In this document: positions 712 through 44,831 of the stretch, piece by piece
Layout of the letters: every line of letters begins with the position of its first letter
How positions within the stretch are numbered: the stretch's first letter is position 1
From: Prevotellaceae bacterium
Lineage (GTDB): Bacteria; Bacteroidota; Bacteroidia; Bacteroidales; UBA932
Assembly: GCA_031267135.1 (NCBI GenBank)
Contig: JAIRZQ010000183.1
Span: 1-54,255 of the forward strand
Reading direction: 5' to 3'
DNA: 54,255 nt
Notes under the pieces: generated by a model
Databases searched by the model: none
What the model was told of the DNA's origin: nothing
What the model saw: the letters and a program-made list of their open reading frames with translations, nothing else
Position numbers and translations under genes: made by a program

Positions 712-896
712 ATTTTGAAGTTGCAAAGGTATAATATTTTATTGACTTAACACAAAATTTTATGAAAACTTTATACCATCAAGTATTCAATGCAATTTTT
801 TGTTAACAACAGTTACGTATTTGTCTTTATATTAATTCTAACATGAGTGAAGAATAATTTATACGGACACACATGTAAAATTGAAACTTAAAAATA

Positions 897-932
897 ATGA
901 AAGAAGCTGACCAAAAGGTCAACTTCTTTCAT
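897..932 (-). terminator. Rho-independent terminator of the cytochrome bd operon
   Basis: A ten-base stem (ATGAAAGAAG/CTTCTTTCAT) extended by TGACC/GGTCA around an AAAA loop lies 25 bases past the cydB stop codon. On the minus strand it is followed by TATTTTT. Confidence 0.8.
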
Positions 933-957
933 ATTATAACGATTTAAATTTCTTAAA

Positions 958-2109
958 TCAATAAGTATGTTCGTTTTCTTCCATTTCTTTACTCGTAATC
1001 TTATGTATGTCGAGCGCACGCCATGCATACACAATATAAGCCAGTACCAGAGGAATAAGGATTGAAACATACGCCATGGTTTTCAATGTAAATAAACTTG
1101 ACGAACTGTTACTGATGGTCAATGAACTTTGCGTGTCTGACAACGAAGGATAATATGCAGTATTGTTCCATCCTGCGCAAAGCAGCAATGCCAATACGGT
1201 CAATACAGTTCCTGTTCCTGCAAACCAAATGCCTTTTTTCCATGTTTGTGATAATATTGTTTTACCTATTCCGAATAATACGCCCACAACACCAACCAGC
1301 AGTACAGCAAGCACCACCGGCATTTGCAGAAAGTTGTGCAAATACTTGCATGGAACTTTTGATACTATACTTGTTTGCGGATCCACTGCAAATCCTTCCT
1401 GTATTAACAGATGAACAAAGAATGTAAGGAAAAATACAAGGAATAATACTGTTTCAATCAGCAGTTGTTTGCGTGATTTTTTCCTGATTTCATCATCGTT
1501 AATATTGTTTATAAAATAAAGTAAAGCCAATACGCGCGACAGGAAGAATACAGCCAGCCCGAGCAATACATTCCATATTACGAATGCAGCTTCGAGTCCG
1601 TGCCATGAGGTTTTCCATGACGAAATTACAGGATTAGCCAAATCTGTAAGGTTTTGTTTTTCCACAATAAAGTTTGCTCCGTTGAAAAACGTTCCTACGG
1701 CTGCGCCCAGTAATACAGGTCCTAAAATGCCGTTTATTACGAGGAATATCTGATACGTTTTCTTTCCCAATAAATTTCCGTGTTTTGCCTGATATTCGTA
1801 TGATACGGCTTGCAGCACAAAGCACAGCAGTATTAAAATCCAAACCCAGTAAGCGCCTCCGAAACTTGTAGAGTAAAACAGCGGGAACGAAGCAAAGAAT
1901 GCTCCTCCGAAAGTAACCAAAGTTGTAAATGTAAATTCCCATTTACGACCTGTAGAGTTCAACAGCATTTTTTGCTGTGTCTGATTTTTGCCTATAGTGA
2001 AAAGCAATGACTGTCCGCCCTGTACAAACAGCAGAAACACCAGTAATGCTCCTAACAAAGATACTAAAAGCCACCAGTAATGTTGTAAGAATATGTATGT
2101 TGCATCCAT
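958..2109 (-). CDS. cydB: Cytochrome bd ubiquinol oxidase subunit II
   Basis: The 383-residue protein is the CydB subunit of the bd-type quinol oxidase, which passes electrons from quinol to oxygen at very low oxygen without pumping protons. It is almost entirely hydrophobic helices, beginning with one at about residues 12-30 (WWLLVSLLGALLVFLLF), and has typical CydB length. It is immediately downstream of cydA (13-base gap) in the same orientation, and a strong terminator follows it, so it is the last gene of the operon. CydB carries no haem ligands; identification rests on the membrane topology, N-terminal sequence and position. In an otherwise anaerobic lineage this oxidase usually supports oxygen removal and nanaerobic growth. 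Confidence 0.95.
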   Translation of the reverse strand: MDATYIFLQHYWWLLVSLLGALLVFLLFVQGGQSLLFTIGKNQTQQKMLLNSTGRKWEFTFTTLVTFGGAFFASFPLFYSTSFGGAYWVWILILLCFVLQAVSYEYQAKHGNLLGKKTYQIFLVINGILGPVLLGAAVGTFFNGANFIVEKQNLTDLANPVISSWKTSWHGLEAAFVIWNVLLGLAVFFLSRVLALLYFINNINDDEIRKKSRKQLLIETVLFLVFFLTFFVHLLIQEGFAVDPQTSIVSKVPCKYLHNFLQMPVVLAVLLVGVVGVLFGIGKTILSQTWKKGIWFAGTGTVLTVLALLLCAGWNNTAYYPSLSDTQSSLTISNSSSSLFTLKTMAYVSILIPLVLAYIVYAWRALDIHKITSKEMEENEHTY

Positions 2110-19195: not shown

Positions 19196-19683
19196 AATGA
19201 GTTTATGTTTATTTCGACATTTGAAAACTTTTCCTGGCAATTAATTATAACATCTTCTTTTTTATAAGGGCTTAACTCGTACGTTTTATTACAGTTATTA
19301 TTTGCTGTTTGGGGATTGATACTTGCACTAACAGTTTGGTTGCTATTGTTATACAAACTTATTGTAGCATAAATATCTTCGTTTGAAGCTGACACTATTT
19401 TTATAATTTCATATTCCAAATGACCCAACGTATCGCTGTTGATTATTACAGGCTTTTTGCGAACGCGAGATTCGATGACACTTTTTAAAATCGACATCAT
19501 ATTACTACTATCACGCCACATTGCATTAAATATTTTACCTATTCATGTTTCTCTTTGTTCCCATTTTTCTAATTTTTCTATTGGTATTTTTTTTACTTCC
19601 TCTAATTTTTTCTTTACTGATTGTGCATTTGCACAAATTCCAAAGCCAATTAGGACTATCAAGATTGCTAAAATCCTTTTCAT
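19192..19683 (-). pseudogene. Exported hypothetical protein interrupted by an in-frame TGA
   Basis: An ATG at 19683 opens MKRILAILIVLIGFGICANA and a Lys/Glu-rich segment, stopping at TGA (19543-19545) after 46 residues. The same frame continues without a further stop through seven codons (IGKIFNA) into a 109-residue stretch from Met at 19521, ending at 19192. The gap is exactly 21 bases, so one base change (for example TGA from CGA or TGG) explains the break. The full product would be about 163 residues with a cleavable signal peptide; the family is unknown. TGA recoding is possible but nothing else in the window suggests it. Confidence 0.65.
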
Positions 19684-19824: not shown

Positions 19825-19840
19825 TTATATACAAATAAAA

Positions 19841-19860
19841 AAGCGGACTTAAATCCGCTT
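19841..19860 (-). terminator. Terminator-like hairpin adjoining the long hairpin
   Basis: AAGCGGA (19841-19847) pairs with TCCGCTT (19854-19860). On the minus strand it is followed by TTTTTATTT, which makes a good Rho-independent terminator. Four bases of it (19857-19860) are also the base of the outer stem of the long hairpin, so the two structures exclude each other. Confidence 0.65.
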
Positions 19861-19987
19861 CTGAGGTCTTCGCTACCTTATTATACAAGAAATAAGCCCG
19901 CATTCTTGCGAGCGTTATTTGCTTATCCTTGTATAATACTTTGAAAGTTTGCGAAGTTTTCAGAAGCAAGAATTATAGCAAAACGCT
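19857..19987. ncRNA. Long structured hairpin with possible pseudoknot, copy A
   Basis: Nested arms: GCTTCTGA (19857-19864) with TCAGAAGC (19960-19967), CTTCGC (19868-19873) with GCGAAG (19951-19956), ATTATACAAG (19880-19889) with CTTGTATAAT (19928-19937), and ATAAGC (19892-19897) with GCTTAT (19921-19926). The apical loop holds GCGAGCGTT, whose AGCGTT (19911-19916) can pair with AACGCT at 19982-19987. A second element at 44416-44548 has the same plan with different stem sequences. Whether it is a transcribed RNA, an attenuator or a DNA-level mobile repeat cannot be told from sequence alone, and the active strand is not certain. Confidence 0.55.
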
Positions 19988-20255
19988 ATCTTATATGTCT
20001 TTTTTTATGCAATTTAGCACATTTTTTCGTCTTTATATCATAAATAAAATTCTCTTTATCCAATTCAATGCAAAATTATAGAAAAAATTTCAATTACAAA
20101 CAAAATATTTTATAAATTGATAATATTTTTTCATTTATCATCTTATTCACATTAGTACAAAAAGATACACTAAGTAACTAACATTGACAATTTTGATATT
20201 TGGTTTTAATGGTTTAAATTTATTCCGGCTTGTTGTGAAATCCTTTATGTTAAAT
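19988..20255. other. AT-rich intergenic region
   Basis: About 270 bases between the hairpin and the next minus-strand gene, very AT-rich. I see no ORF or clear hairpin. Confidence 0.5.
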
Positions 20256-42018: not shown

Positions 42019-43512
42019 TTATAAAGGGTTTAGTTCATTAATAAACTGCGGTGCAAACTTACAGCGCGGATCAGGAAAATCCCAGTTTTCGTCGCCGTAG
42101 GCTTTCAACACATCTACGTAACATTTATTATGATACGAATAACATTCGTCAAAGATAGTACATTTTTTACAAATACTTGCATCTCTGAAACTTTCTTTTT
42201 TAGGAAACGCAAGTTCAAGCGCATGCGGCGAATTCCAAACTTCCTTAATTGTTTGTTTTGTTAAATCGCCAATAATAAAACGAGGATTCCAATACATTTG
42301 TTCGCAAAGGGTAACCTGTCCATCTGGCAAAACAAAAATATTGGAATAATTCGCCGAGCATCTTGAACCTCTAAAATTTCGGCTACCTCCTTCCTCAGCA
42401 AAATATCTTGTACCCGTATCAAGTGTTGCTTCAATAGTAATTGATGAGTATTGTTTTACATCTGCTATCCATTTGTTTATTTTAACAATAGATTCTTTAG
42501 AAGTTCTTATTTCATCAAAATTTCCCCTGCTGTACATCGACTTAAAACCGACTCTTATATCCCATTTTCTTAAATTTTTAAAATCCAAAAGAAAATTATG
42601 TAAACTCTCTAAATTTTCAATACTGTCGTTGTATTTGGTAAGCACAGTAGCCACTTTAAAAGCAATATTGTGGTTATCTAAAAAAGTAATGGTTTGTTTT
42701 ATATTATCGGCATAATCCGATTTAACCTTAAGTATTTGCACTAATTTGTTTGGATTAACAGAATCCAAAGAGATTTGTACCGGAATATCGTATGTTTTTA
42801 ATGCAATTATATCTTCTTCACAAATGGGTACTTTTGTTGAAATTAAAGATTCCTTAAAACCGTTTTCAAGCAATAAATCAAGCAATTCTTTCCATTGCCA
42901 ATAAAGAAAAAATTCTCCTCCTGTAATAGTTATATCTTGAAATTGTAGTTGTTTTGCCTCTTGTATTATTTCTTTTATTCTATCGAAGGATAACATTTGT
43001 GATTTTACGGACTTATTTGCGTAACAGTAAACGCAGTCGGTAACACAAGTATTATTAATCATCAAAACCATAGTTAAAGGAGCAACGATGAAACGGTCGT
43101 GCCGCAAGTCCAATTCATTGTATGCAAACTGTTCCGGTTTATAATCAATAGTAGGTGCAAACGACTTGTCGGCATCAATAATTATGTTTTTTGGGAAAAA
43201 ATTTTCTGTTCCACCATAGTTGCCCATAACGATTTCGTAGTTGTTGATAAAAGGTTGAATCAAATTTTCAACATCCGATTCAATCATATCCAAAAAATAT
43301 GACAATTCTTTAATTGCATCCTGTAATGCAATCGGTTTTGAAAAAAAAGATAAAATCATGGCATAAACAGGATGAATCCTGCTCAACCATTTTGCATCAA
43401 CAAATTCAGAATATTTACCGTCAACAAAAGTTGGCGCTAATATGTAACTCCTTTTTAAATCGTGTCGTATTTTATAAAAATGATTAAAAACTATTTTCTT
43501 TTCTGTATTCAT
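42019..43512 (-). CDS. Radical SAM/SPASM peptide maturase
   Basis: A 497-residue enzyme. The N-terminal region (about 35-105, YAMILSFF, DAIKELSYFLDM, VENLIQPFINNY) looks like a PqqD-type peptide-recognition domain. The radical SAM core carries the iron-sulfur motif CVTDCVYC (Cys156, 160, 163) after LTMVLMINNT, followed by ITGGEFFLYW. The C-terminal SPASM region has many Cys (GSRCSANYSN, VTLCEQMYW, ICKKCTIFDECYSYHNKC), which would hold auxiliary clusters. It follows the precursor gene by 166 bases, so it should modify that peptide. Which bonds it makes (thioether, C-C or epimer) cannot be read from sequence. Confidence 0.9.
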   Translation of the reverse strand: MNTEKKIVFNHFYKIRHDLKRSYILAPTFVDGKYSEFVDAKWLSRIHPVYAMILSFFSKPIALQDAIKELSYFLDMIESDVENLIQPFINNYEIVMGNYGGTENFFPKNIIIDADKSFAPTIDYKPEQFAYNELDLRHDRFIVAPLTMVLMINNTCVTDCVYCYANKSVKSQMLSFDRIKEIIQEAKQLQFQDITITGGEFFLYWQWKELLDLLLENGFKESLISTKVPICEEDIIALKTYDIPVQISLDSVNPNKLVQILKVKSDYADNIKQTITFLDNHNIAFKVATVLTKYNDSIENLESLHNFLLDFKNLRKWDIRVGFKSMYSRGNFDEIRTSKESIVKINKWIADVKQYSSITIEATLDTGTRYFAEEGGSRNFRGSRCSANYSNIFVLPDGQVTLCEQMYWNPRFIIGDLTKQTIKEVWNSPHALELAFPKKESFRDASICKKCTIFDECYSYHNKCYVDVLKAYGDENWDFPDPRCKFAPQFINELNPL

Positions 43513-43543
43513 GGTTATTATATTTTTTATTTTAAAAATTAAA

Positions 43544-43586
43544 AAACTAATTGAGGATATTTACATATAATATCCTCAATTAGTTT
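43544..43586 (-). terminator. Strong terminator/attenuator between precursor and maturase genes
   Basis: A 17-base perfect stem (43544-43560 with 43570-43586, core CTAATTGAGGATAT) closes a nine-base loop. On the minus strand it runs into TTTTTTAATTTTT, 31 bases before the maturase start. It should stop most transcripts after the precursor and let a fraction pass into the maturase genes. Confidence 0.85.
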
Positions 43587-43678
43587 AAATACTGTTTGTG
43601 TTACCAAAGATGTTGTCTGTTGATAATACTTGTAACATAAATTGTGTACTTTCTGCAAAACACAAACTTGGCAGTGCT

Positions 43679-43888
43679 TTATGTACTTTGAGTGCATGTG
43701 CCGATGCCGCTAGCGCAAATGCCATCTCCATCAGTGCAGAAACCTGCTCCAACCTCACGATTCCTTACACAAACTTGGGTTCCACAACCAACTGTTAATG
43801 CACTTTGACCACCTTTTAGCACAGATAGTTCTTCTACTTTTAAGACTTCTTTATTTCCTGTTAAGTCTTTGAATTTTACTTTTTTCAT
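43679..43888 (-). CDS. Ribosomal peptide precursor with GG leader and Cys/Gly repeat core
   Basis: A 69-residue protein. Residues 1-27 are a leader (MKKVKFKDLTGNKEVLKVEE then LSVLKGG) of the Bacteroidota double-glycine kind. The core (28-69) has five Cys at 35, 40, 51, 58 and 65. The last three are exactly seven apart and form the repeat CxxGxGx (CTDGDGI, CASGIGT, then C65). REVGAGF before them fits the same heptad with Arg in the Cys place. The next gene is a radical SAM/SPASM enzyme. A promoter box lies 67 bases upstream. I am confident it is a modified-peptide precursor; the product's structure and activity are unknown. Confidence 0.88.
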   Translation of the reverse strand: MKKVKFKDLTGNKEVLKVEELSVLKGGQSALTVGCGTQVCVRNREVGAGFCTDGDGICASGIGTCTQST

Positions 43889-44042: not shown

Positions 44043-44366
44043 TTAGTGCTGATTTTTATTTGTTTTTCTGAGTAAAACGGCATTTTCGGGCAAAGTATCG
44101 GGAATTTCGGTTTCGTTCAAATAAACTATAAGTATATATTCGTAACTATTGTTTATAATATTTGTATAATGGTTTTCAATAAAATCGTAACCTAAAACAT
44201 CGGATATTTTTTGCAATAATTGAACGTCAACACTTGCGCTTTCGTAAATATTATAAACGGCTCCTCGCGAAAGATTAATCCGTCTTGCAAACTCAGTAAC
44301 AGAAAGCGAGCGCTGCTTCACTTTTTGTTTTATAATACTGCCGATATGTATTTTATCGCTTTTCAT
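44043..44366 (-). CDS. XRE-family regulator of the peptide cluster
   Basis: A 107-residue protein with an N-terminal helix-turn-helix (IKQKVKQRSLSVTEFARRIN then LSRGAVYNIYESASVDV, about residues 13-49) and LLQKISDVLGYDFIENHY as the closing helix. The C-terminal 40 residues (NSYEYILIVYLNETEIPDTL) may form a small dimerisation or sensing part. It lies on the same strand upstream of the peptide precursor with an inverted repeat between, so it likely controls the cluster and possibly itself. Its own leader contains the long hairpin at 44416-44548. Confidence 0.87.
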   Translation of the reverse strand: MKSDKIHIGSIIKQKVKQRSLSVTEFARRINLSRGAVYNIYESASVDVQLLQKISDVLGYDFIENHYTNIINNSYEYILIVYLNETEIPDTLPENAVLLRKTNKNQH

Positions 44367-44831
44367 TATTCTTCTGTTTGCGAATGTTTAAAATGAAATA
44401 ATCGTGAACTGATATTTGTTATCTATGGCTCTGGGATTGCCTTGCAGTACAAATGAAAAAGCTCACGATTGCTCGCGAGCGTTGCCTTTCATTCCTGTAC
44501 TGCTATCTAAATTTCCCAGATTTAAGATAACAAGAATAAGCTAACGCTTTATTTATTTTCTGTTTTATTCGTTTATGTCATAATAATATCATTTGTTTTA
44601 GCAAAGTTATAATTTTATTTTTAATGTATAATAATCTACATTAAAATTTTCTCATGTTGAGTTGATTTATCATTATAACTTTTAATCTATCAATTGCAAA
44701 AGCACAAAACATCAAAATTTTTTCAAAATAAAATTATAGAATAATATATTAATAATAAAGAAGTTATATGGCAAATCTATAGTTTTTGTCATGTAGTAAA
44801 ATATTTATATTGCAGATTGATAAATCATTTT
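44367..44831. other. Divergent intergenic region containing the long hairpin
   Basis: About 465 bases between the XRE gene and the peptide deformylase gene. The left part holds hairpin copy B; the right part (44560-44830) is AT-rich with no ORF and no clear structure other than the deformylase promoter. Confidence 0.55.
44416..44548. ncRNA. Long structured hairpin with possible pseudoknot, copy B
   Basis: Nested perfect arms: TTGTTATCT (44416-44424) with AGATAACAA (44525-44533), TCTGGGA (44430-44436) with TCCCAGA (44514-44520), GCAGTACA (44444-44451) with TGTACTGC (44496-44503), and AATGAAA (44452-44458) with TTTCATT (44487-44493). The apex contains CGCGAGCGTTG, whose AGCGTT (44478-44483) can pair with AACGCT at 44543-44548. 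AATCGTGA at 44400-44407 can also pair with TCACGATT in the apex (44463-44470), an alternative fold. Plan and loop motif are shared with 19857-19987. It sits 50 bases upstream of the XRE start codon. Confidence 0.55.

Follow-up and report, generated by a model that had tools for sequence, protein, structure and literature searches.

The window analysed here, a stretch of 54,255 nt, covers positions 1 to 54,255 of the forward strand of contig JAIRZQ010000183.1 (assembly GCA_031267135.1, Prevotellaceae bacterium). An XRE/HTH_3 regulator gene on its minus strand is followed, at 42019-43888 (minus), by the genes of a SPASM radical SAM enzyme and a GG-leader peptide precursor, a composition that suggests a modified-peptide cluster. 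The leader of the regulator gene, where the preliminary description of this DNA had placed it, holds a long hairpin element (copy B), which comprises the following features in the order of the RNA:

44602-44611, minus: promoter -7 box TATAACTTTG, of the Bacteroidota type TAnnTTTG
44573-44581, minus: mini-ORF ATG-ACA-TAA
44543-44548, minus: K5 (AGCGTT), region 1, partner of K3
44531-44537, minus: P2 5' strand (ATTCTTG), covarying with the P2 3' strand
44525-44533, minus: S1 5' strand
44508-44524, minus: HR hairpin, its loop being the S2 5' strand (44514-44520)
44496-44503, minus: S3 5' strand
44491-44497, minus: P2 3' strand (CAGGAAT)
44487-44493, minus: S4 5' strand
44478-44483, minus: K3 (AACGCT), region 2
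44474-44480, minus: AT 5' strand (AT5, GCTCGCG), region 2, overlapping K3
44459-44470, minus: X5, region 3, partner of AT5 or X3, with three-way covariation
44461-44467, minus: AT 3' strand (CGTGAGC), inside X5
44452-44458, minus: S4 3' strand
44444-44451, minus: S3 3' strand
44427-44441, minus: HL hairpin, its loop being the S2 3' strand (44430-44436)
44416-44424, minus: S1 3' strand
44400-44410, minus: X3, region 4, 3' strand of the putative terminator helix
44390-44402, minus: U-rich tail ATTATTTCATTTT, interrupted and weaker than in most copies
44043-44366, minus: XRE/HTH_3 regulator, 107 aa (Pfam HTH_3, 1.1e-6), headed by copy B
43679-43888, minus: GG-leader peptide precursor, 69 aa, downstream of the XRE gene

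The elements of copy A follow this order, with other sequences:

20071-20080, minus: promoter -7 box TATAATTTTG
20033-20041, minus: mini-ORF ATG-ATA-TAA
19982-19987, minus: K5, region 1
19908-19916, minus: K3 and AT5, region 2, AACGCTCGC
19894-19901, minus: X5, region 3
19857-19967, minus: S1, HR, S3, P2, S4 and HL, with the S1 strands at 19960-19967 and 19857-19864
19833-19850, minus: X3 (region 4) and U-run CTTTTTTATTT
within 19833-19850, minus: compact local hairpin AGCGGATTTAAGTCCGCT, at X3 and the U-run
19543-19683, minus: first reading frame after copy A, a predicted 46-aa peptide with a signal-peptide-like start (MKRILAILIVLIGFGICANAQ...)

All four stems claimed for copy B by the preliminary description are present (S1, 9 bp; S2, 7 bp; S3, 8 bp; S4, 7 bp), as is the pairing of AGCGTT with AACGCT (44478-44483 with 44543-44548). 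The element nevertheless extends further than those stems, taking in HL, HR, P2, the promoter box and often an ORF of 1-3 codons. Its general order on the RNA is -7 box, often a mini-ORF, K5, P2 5', S1 5' and HR, then S3 5', P2 3', S4 5', K3 running into AT5, and X5, and finally S4 3', S3 3', HL, S1 3', X3, the U-run and the gene. The loops of HR and HL are mutually complementary, so that S2 is a pairing of loop with loop. Compared with dinucleotide shuffles, the folding energies of the two window copies gave z scores of -6.4 and -5.4 (0 of 200 shuffles as good), and the two-part motif GCGAGCGTT-N45..75-AACGCT occurs twice in the window and in none of 100 shuffles.

The two hairpins are, on well-supported sequence grounds, members of a large and apparently undescribed family of leader RNAs of about 160 bases, a much wider scope than the pair first described. 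With the two-part pattern, clear relatives were detected in further genomes of the genus and in a second genus of the same family, and 14 of these relatives served to build a covariance model (R1, with helices K, HR, X and HL). The search with R1, an approach proposed in the preliminary description, was productive: it identified 26 copies in the window's genome (an incomplete assembly, 87% complete), 5-23 copies per genus mate, and copies in 20 of the 49 genera sampled. The 2.3 Mb genome G023 contains at least 49 copies, all 49 scored candidates having matched. Under strict filters copies were found in 61 of the 295 genomes sampled from the order, and Bacteroidales genomes hold up to dozens each. 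Three copies are present in Alistipes sp. dk3624 and 19 in a metagenome-assembled genome (MAG) assigned to Alistipes senegalensis, around which a genus-level sample yielded the element in 26 of 41 genomes. Other carriers include an Odoribacter genome and MAGs labelled Prevotellaceae, Rikenellaceae, Paludibacteraceae, Bacteroidaceae, Flavobacteriales and Cryomorphaceae. With very strict scoring, a phylum sample added 10 other genomes of the class with one or two copies each; all 11 copies from this sample fit every helix.

The preliminary description had recognised no named RNA family here, in agreement with the searches. Scoring the window with the Rfam covariance models gave no family at threshold, the element copies produced only weak L20_leader matches (22-27 bits against a gathering score of 58.7), and the distant copies matched nothing in Rfam. 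No score above gathering was obtained for Flavo-1, 6S-Flavo, Bacteroidales-1 or the L20 leader, and a search of the open-access literature (PMC) found no description of the element.

The strand read in the preliminary description needs correcting: the RNA is encoded by the minus strand, a well-supported assignment. X pairs better on that strand in 132 copies against 6, AT in 136 against 1, and S3/S4 in 111 against 26, while S1 alone shows no strand preference. Conserved A.C mismatches on the plus strand are G.U pairs on the minus strand, an asymmetry that rules out a plus-strand reading. Since both the G.U pairs and helix strength favour the minus strand, the RNA runs toward the XRE gene.

Selection on structure, as originally proposed, is borne out by compensatory changes across 139 distinct copies. 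As the stems vary too much for alignment, we used a swap test, in which the partner strand of each helix is replaced by that of another copy and the native and swapped energies are compared over the 139 copies. The native pairing is far stronger for S1 (-12.1 vs. -4.8 kcal/mol), S2 (-10.4 vs. -2.7 kcal/mol) and S3/S4 (-13.8 vs. -6.3 kcal/mol), and clearly stronger for X (-14.9 vs. -11.2 kcal/mol), AT (-12.7 vs. -10.3 kcal/mol) and P2 (-10.3 vs. -7.8 kcal/mol); in three control segment pairs native and swapped energies were equal. HL and HR hardly covary in this test because they are almost invariant. In the alignable helices K, HR, X and HL, 20 of 22 pairs show two-sided changes and 97% of cells are paired (0 of 500 shuffles; slid controls collapse), although the alignment was fitted to these four helices and so leans toward them, the swap test being less dependent on it. 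K alone has two-sided changes at 6 of 6 pairs, with 98% of cells paired, and the distant set follows the same trend as the main alignment test. The preliminary description had named near-identical mobile repeats lacking compensatory changes, or a match to a known family such as a MITE or 6S RNA, as outcomes that would count against it; the copies are diverged and covary strongly, and no known family matched. The region upstream of K showed no pairing above swapped controls with any part of the element. Two further candidate structures, a 5'-3' closure (AUAAAAAGC:GCUUUUUU) and a local K hairpin, were rejected as not clearly above controls.

The alternative pairing noted earlier as a possibility in copy B (AATCGTGA with TCACGATT) exists and matters, yet it is not incidental: it corresponds to the covarying putative terminator helix X, present in nearly all copies. 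The middle strand, X5, is common to the AT (AT5:X5) and X (X5:X3) helices. Two bases 5' of the X5 core, the triples seen most often are CGC, TAT, GCG, ATA and TGC, the upstream and downstream strands having mostly the same base and the middle strand its complement. Of 133 copies, 90 accommodate both pairings, whereas 23 would be expected and 1000 shuffles gave 36 at most. Such triple covariation is the mark of selection on two alternative helices, and leaves an unusually clear trace of two alternative RNA folds in the sequence. K in turn overlaps AT5 by three bases (GCU). Two-state pairing is thus well supported by the covariation, and much of the pairing is better explained by two exclusive folds than by the static apical pseudoknot of the preliminary description. 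Of the 93 testable copies, 92 adopt the nested hairpin S1-S2-S3-S4-AT as their minimum-energy fold, and X forms in 83 when domain 2 is folded apart. Equilibrium favours the long hairpin by about 14 kcal/mol, and the terminator state would therefore need kinetics or a factor.

Additional clues come from the sequence upstream. A -7 box of the Bacteroidota type precedes 103 of 139 copies (27 in shuffles), and an ATG with a stop within three codons was found in 56 of the 69 copies of the first set (17.5 in shuffles). Among all upstream ATGs the stop falls within three codons in frame 0 for 70 of 113, against 20 and 15 in the other frames; in the second set the corresponding values are 24 of 38, and 5 and 7. 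These mini-ORF counts overstate independence, the copies being related. About half of the second set has no mini-ORF. Where present, it ends some 20-60 bases before K5, too far upstream to mask K5 directly, and its codons are varied. It may act as a ribosome sensor or as a means to keep ribosomes out of the element. In 79 of 139 copies, against about 9 expected from shuffles, K5 is also preceded at 5-18 bases by a short conserved ACATA motif.

Taken as a whole, we put forward, with a probability of roughly 0.7, that the element is a cis-acting two-state transcription attenuator (pairings 1:2, 2:3 and 3:4) with copy-specific long-range helices, heading accessory genes. RNA polymerase would start at the -7 box, some 70-100 bases upstream, and pass the ORF of 1-3 codons found in many copies before entering the element. 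Two partners would then be available to region 2 (K3/AT5), namely region 1 (K5) and region 3 (X5); region 3 in turn could form the AT hairpin with region 2 or pair with region 4 (X3). The X5:X3 pairing would yield a GC-rich helix with a U-run behind it, and so a putative intrinsic terminator before the gene, which the AT hairpin would exclude. The long nested hairpin S1-S2-S3-S4-AT, built of copy-specific strands, would stabilise the AT state, and the terminator state would be compatible with K, P2, HR and HL. The balance might be tipped by a ribosome at the mini-ORF, a protein, the speed of the polymerase or a ligand. That transcription terminates and that this is regulated, together with the way the logic runs and the nature of the signal, we infer from these sequence patterns.

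In an alternative scenario, which we regard as unlikely, the leader would be a riboswitch or protein-binding RNA with a single fold, S1-S4, the kissing HR-HL, K, P2 and X coexisting as pseudoknots around a binding pocket. The stems of HR and HL with their complementary loops do resemble kissing hairpins, and AGGU/ACCU and GAAA/UUUC are strongly conserved. Against a single fold, however, AT and X draw on the same nucleotides, with covariation in each, AT shares the three bases noted above with K, and at least 30 pairs threaded between two closed domains are sterically unlikely; moreover, invariant unpaired bases are few and the downstream genes share no function.

Somewhat less probable still is that AT is the terminator and X5:X3 the competing structure, in which case the logic would be reversed, or the two would be tandem terminators. 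AT forms a compact, GC-rich hairpin with U-rich sequence behind it, and a terminator scan flags it in both window copies, an observation that counts against the attenuator as we draw it. So do the loop of about 50-60 bases enclosed by the X helix, which is atypical for an intrinsic terminator, and the interrupted U-run behind X3 in copy B. Nevertheless, a run of at least five T follows X3 in 118 of 139 copies and X5 in only 8 of 139, which favours X as the putative terminator.

The gene repertoire behind the element bears on a third alternative. By simple ORF calling, rather than curated annotation, the next gene (at least 70 aa) shares the element's strand in 120 of 135 copies, at a median gap of 51.5 bases. 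The encoded proteins are unrelated (161 Pfam families in 100 proteins, the top family at 5%), so that the candidate of one common downstream family was discarded, and they include BspA-like LRR proteins, secreted proteins, CsgG, TonB receptors, N6 methylases and other restriction-modification proteins, as well as HTH and LytTR regulators, several of them followed by a GG-leader peptide precursor. Pairs of an XRE or LytTR gene and a precursor similar to that of the window also lie behind copies in L008, L009 and L090. NusG paralogues (UpxY/LoaP type) and RRM proteins were considered and seem not to be obligatory partners, G023 having one NusG match and no RRM match. The element might instead be a stand-alone, trans-acting small RNA with the X terminator as its 3' end, the adjoining gene being incidental. 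Its own promoter box and terminator and its many copies per genome would agree with this, but so regular a same-strand gene at about 51 bases is unexpected for an independent RNA gene, no common sequence is free for mRNA targeting, and the stems differ between copies; we consider it improbable. Finally, a DNA element (a MITE, recombination site or phase-variation repeat, palindromic by chance) is very improbable, for although the copies are numerous, palindromic, in several cases near contig ends and placed before variable genes, one strand is favoured via G-U pairs, the U-run is directional, and diverged copies with compensatory changes keep a fixed orientation to the gene. An integron attC-like site was likewise rejected: attC-type pairing of the outer ends is lacking, and RNA is indicated by the orientation, the U-run and the G-U pairs.

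As a kind of device, the element is best explained as an attenuator, an already known kind; as a family that spans unrelated accessory genes with a reinforced two-state design, it looks new. To our knowledge, few cis-regulatory RNAs are known in Bacteroidota, among which the element would rank as one of the commonest, with a range that takes in gut Alistipes and other orders of the class. With trp-type attenuators it would share the four-region logic, a strand common to antiterminator and terminator, the U-run, a short ORF often upstream and the position before a gene. An exclusive 2:3 antiterminator and 3:4 terminator sharing region 3 are indicated by the joint fit of both pairings and the U-run after region 4, and a 1:2 pairing that could compete with 2:3 by the covariation of K5:K3 and its GCU overlap with AT5. 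In contrast, a leader ORF with regulatory codons reaching region 1 was not found: the ORF, absent in many copies, has 1-3 codons, none of them regulatory, and ends well before region 1. The extra long-range helices S1-S4 and P2, the paired hairpin loops and the position before unrelated genes are further differences, trp-type attenuators serving one biosynthetic pathway. The tetQ leader of Bacteroides has a three-codon leader ORF and is, like the present element, a Bacteroidota leader RNA with a proposed structural switch. It is an attenuator controlling translation, whose structure is proposed to switch with the state of the ribosome (PMC5418344); it differs in being translational and in heading a single gene, a distinction drawn from its description. 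Flavo-1 RNA (RF01705) is a multi-copy structured RNA of Bacteroidetes, partly located in 5' transcribed regions and reported to lie sense or antisense to transcripts without preference (PMC9723704); no copy tested, distant copies included, matched it in Rfam.

One RNA switch may thus control many surface, peptide and defence genes. More tentatively, the family might constitute a class-wide regulon: in each genome, dozens of unrelated accessory operons would answer to one RNA switch reading a single global signal, perhaps ribosome initiation or release at the start-stop mini-ORF, with copy-specific long-range pairing preventing cross-talk. Cross-talk between the copies of a genome was looked for and rejected, non-cognate pairing within it being no stronger than pairing with strands from other genomes. 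The element would be a testable switch with its strands mapped, and could offer a new way to see co-regulated accessory genes.

Some individual loci deserve mention. DUF805 RNA (RF03081), a separate 68-base motif, lies in leaders from the same genus, on the 3' side of some A-type copies: it scores above gathering in L010 (1665-1732, plus) and below it in L025, L018 and L008, in the last of which it lies about 770 bases away. A viral contig (L224, IMGVR_UViG_3300001686_000010) has one copy at 855-1022 (plus) before a small secreted protein gene; this copy may be phage-borne, or the contig misclassified. In L026, tandem copies at 1412-1583 and 1635-1809 (minus) precede a membrane glycosyltransferase-like gene, and the second, which is without S1 and S2 complementarity, may be decaying.
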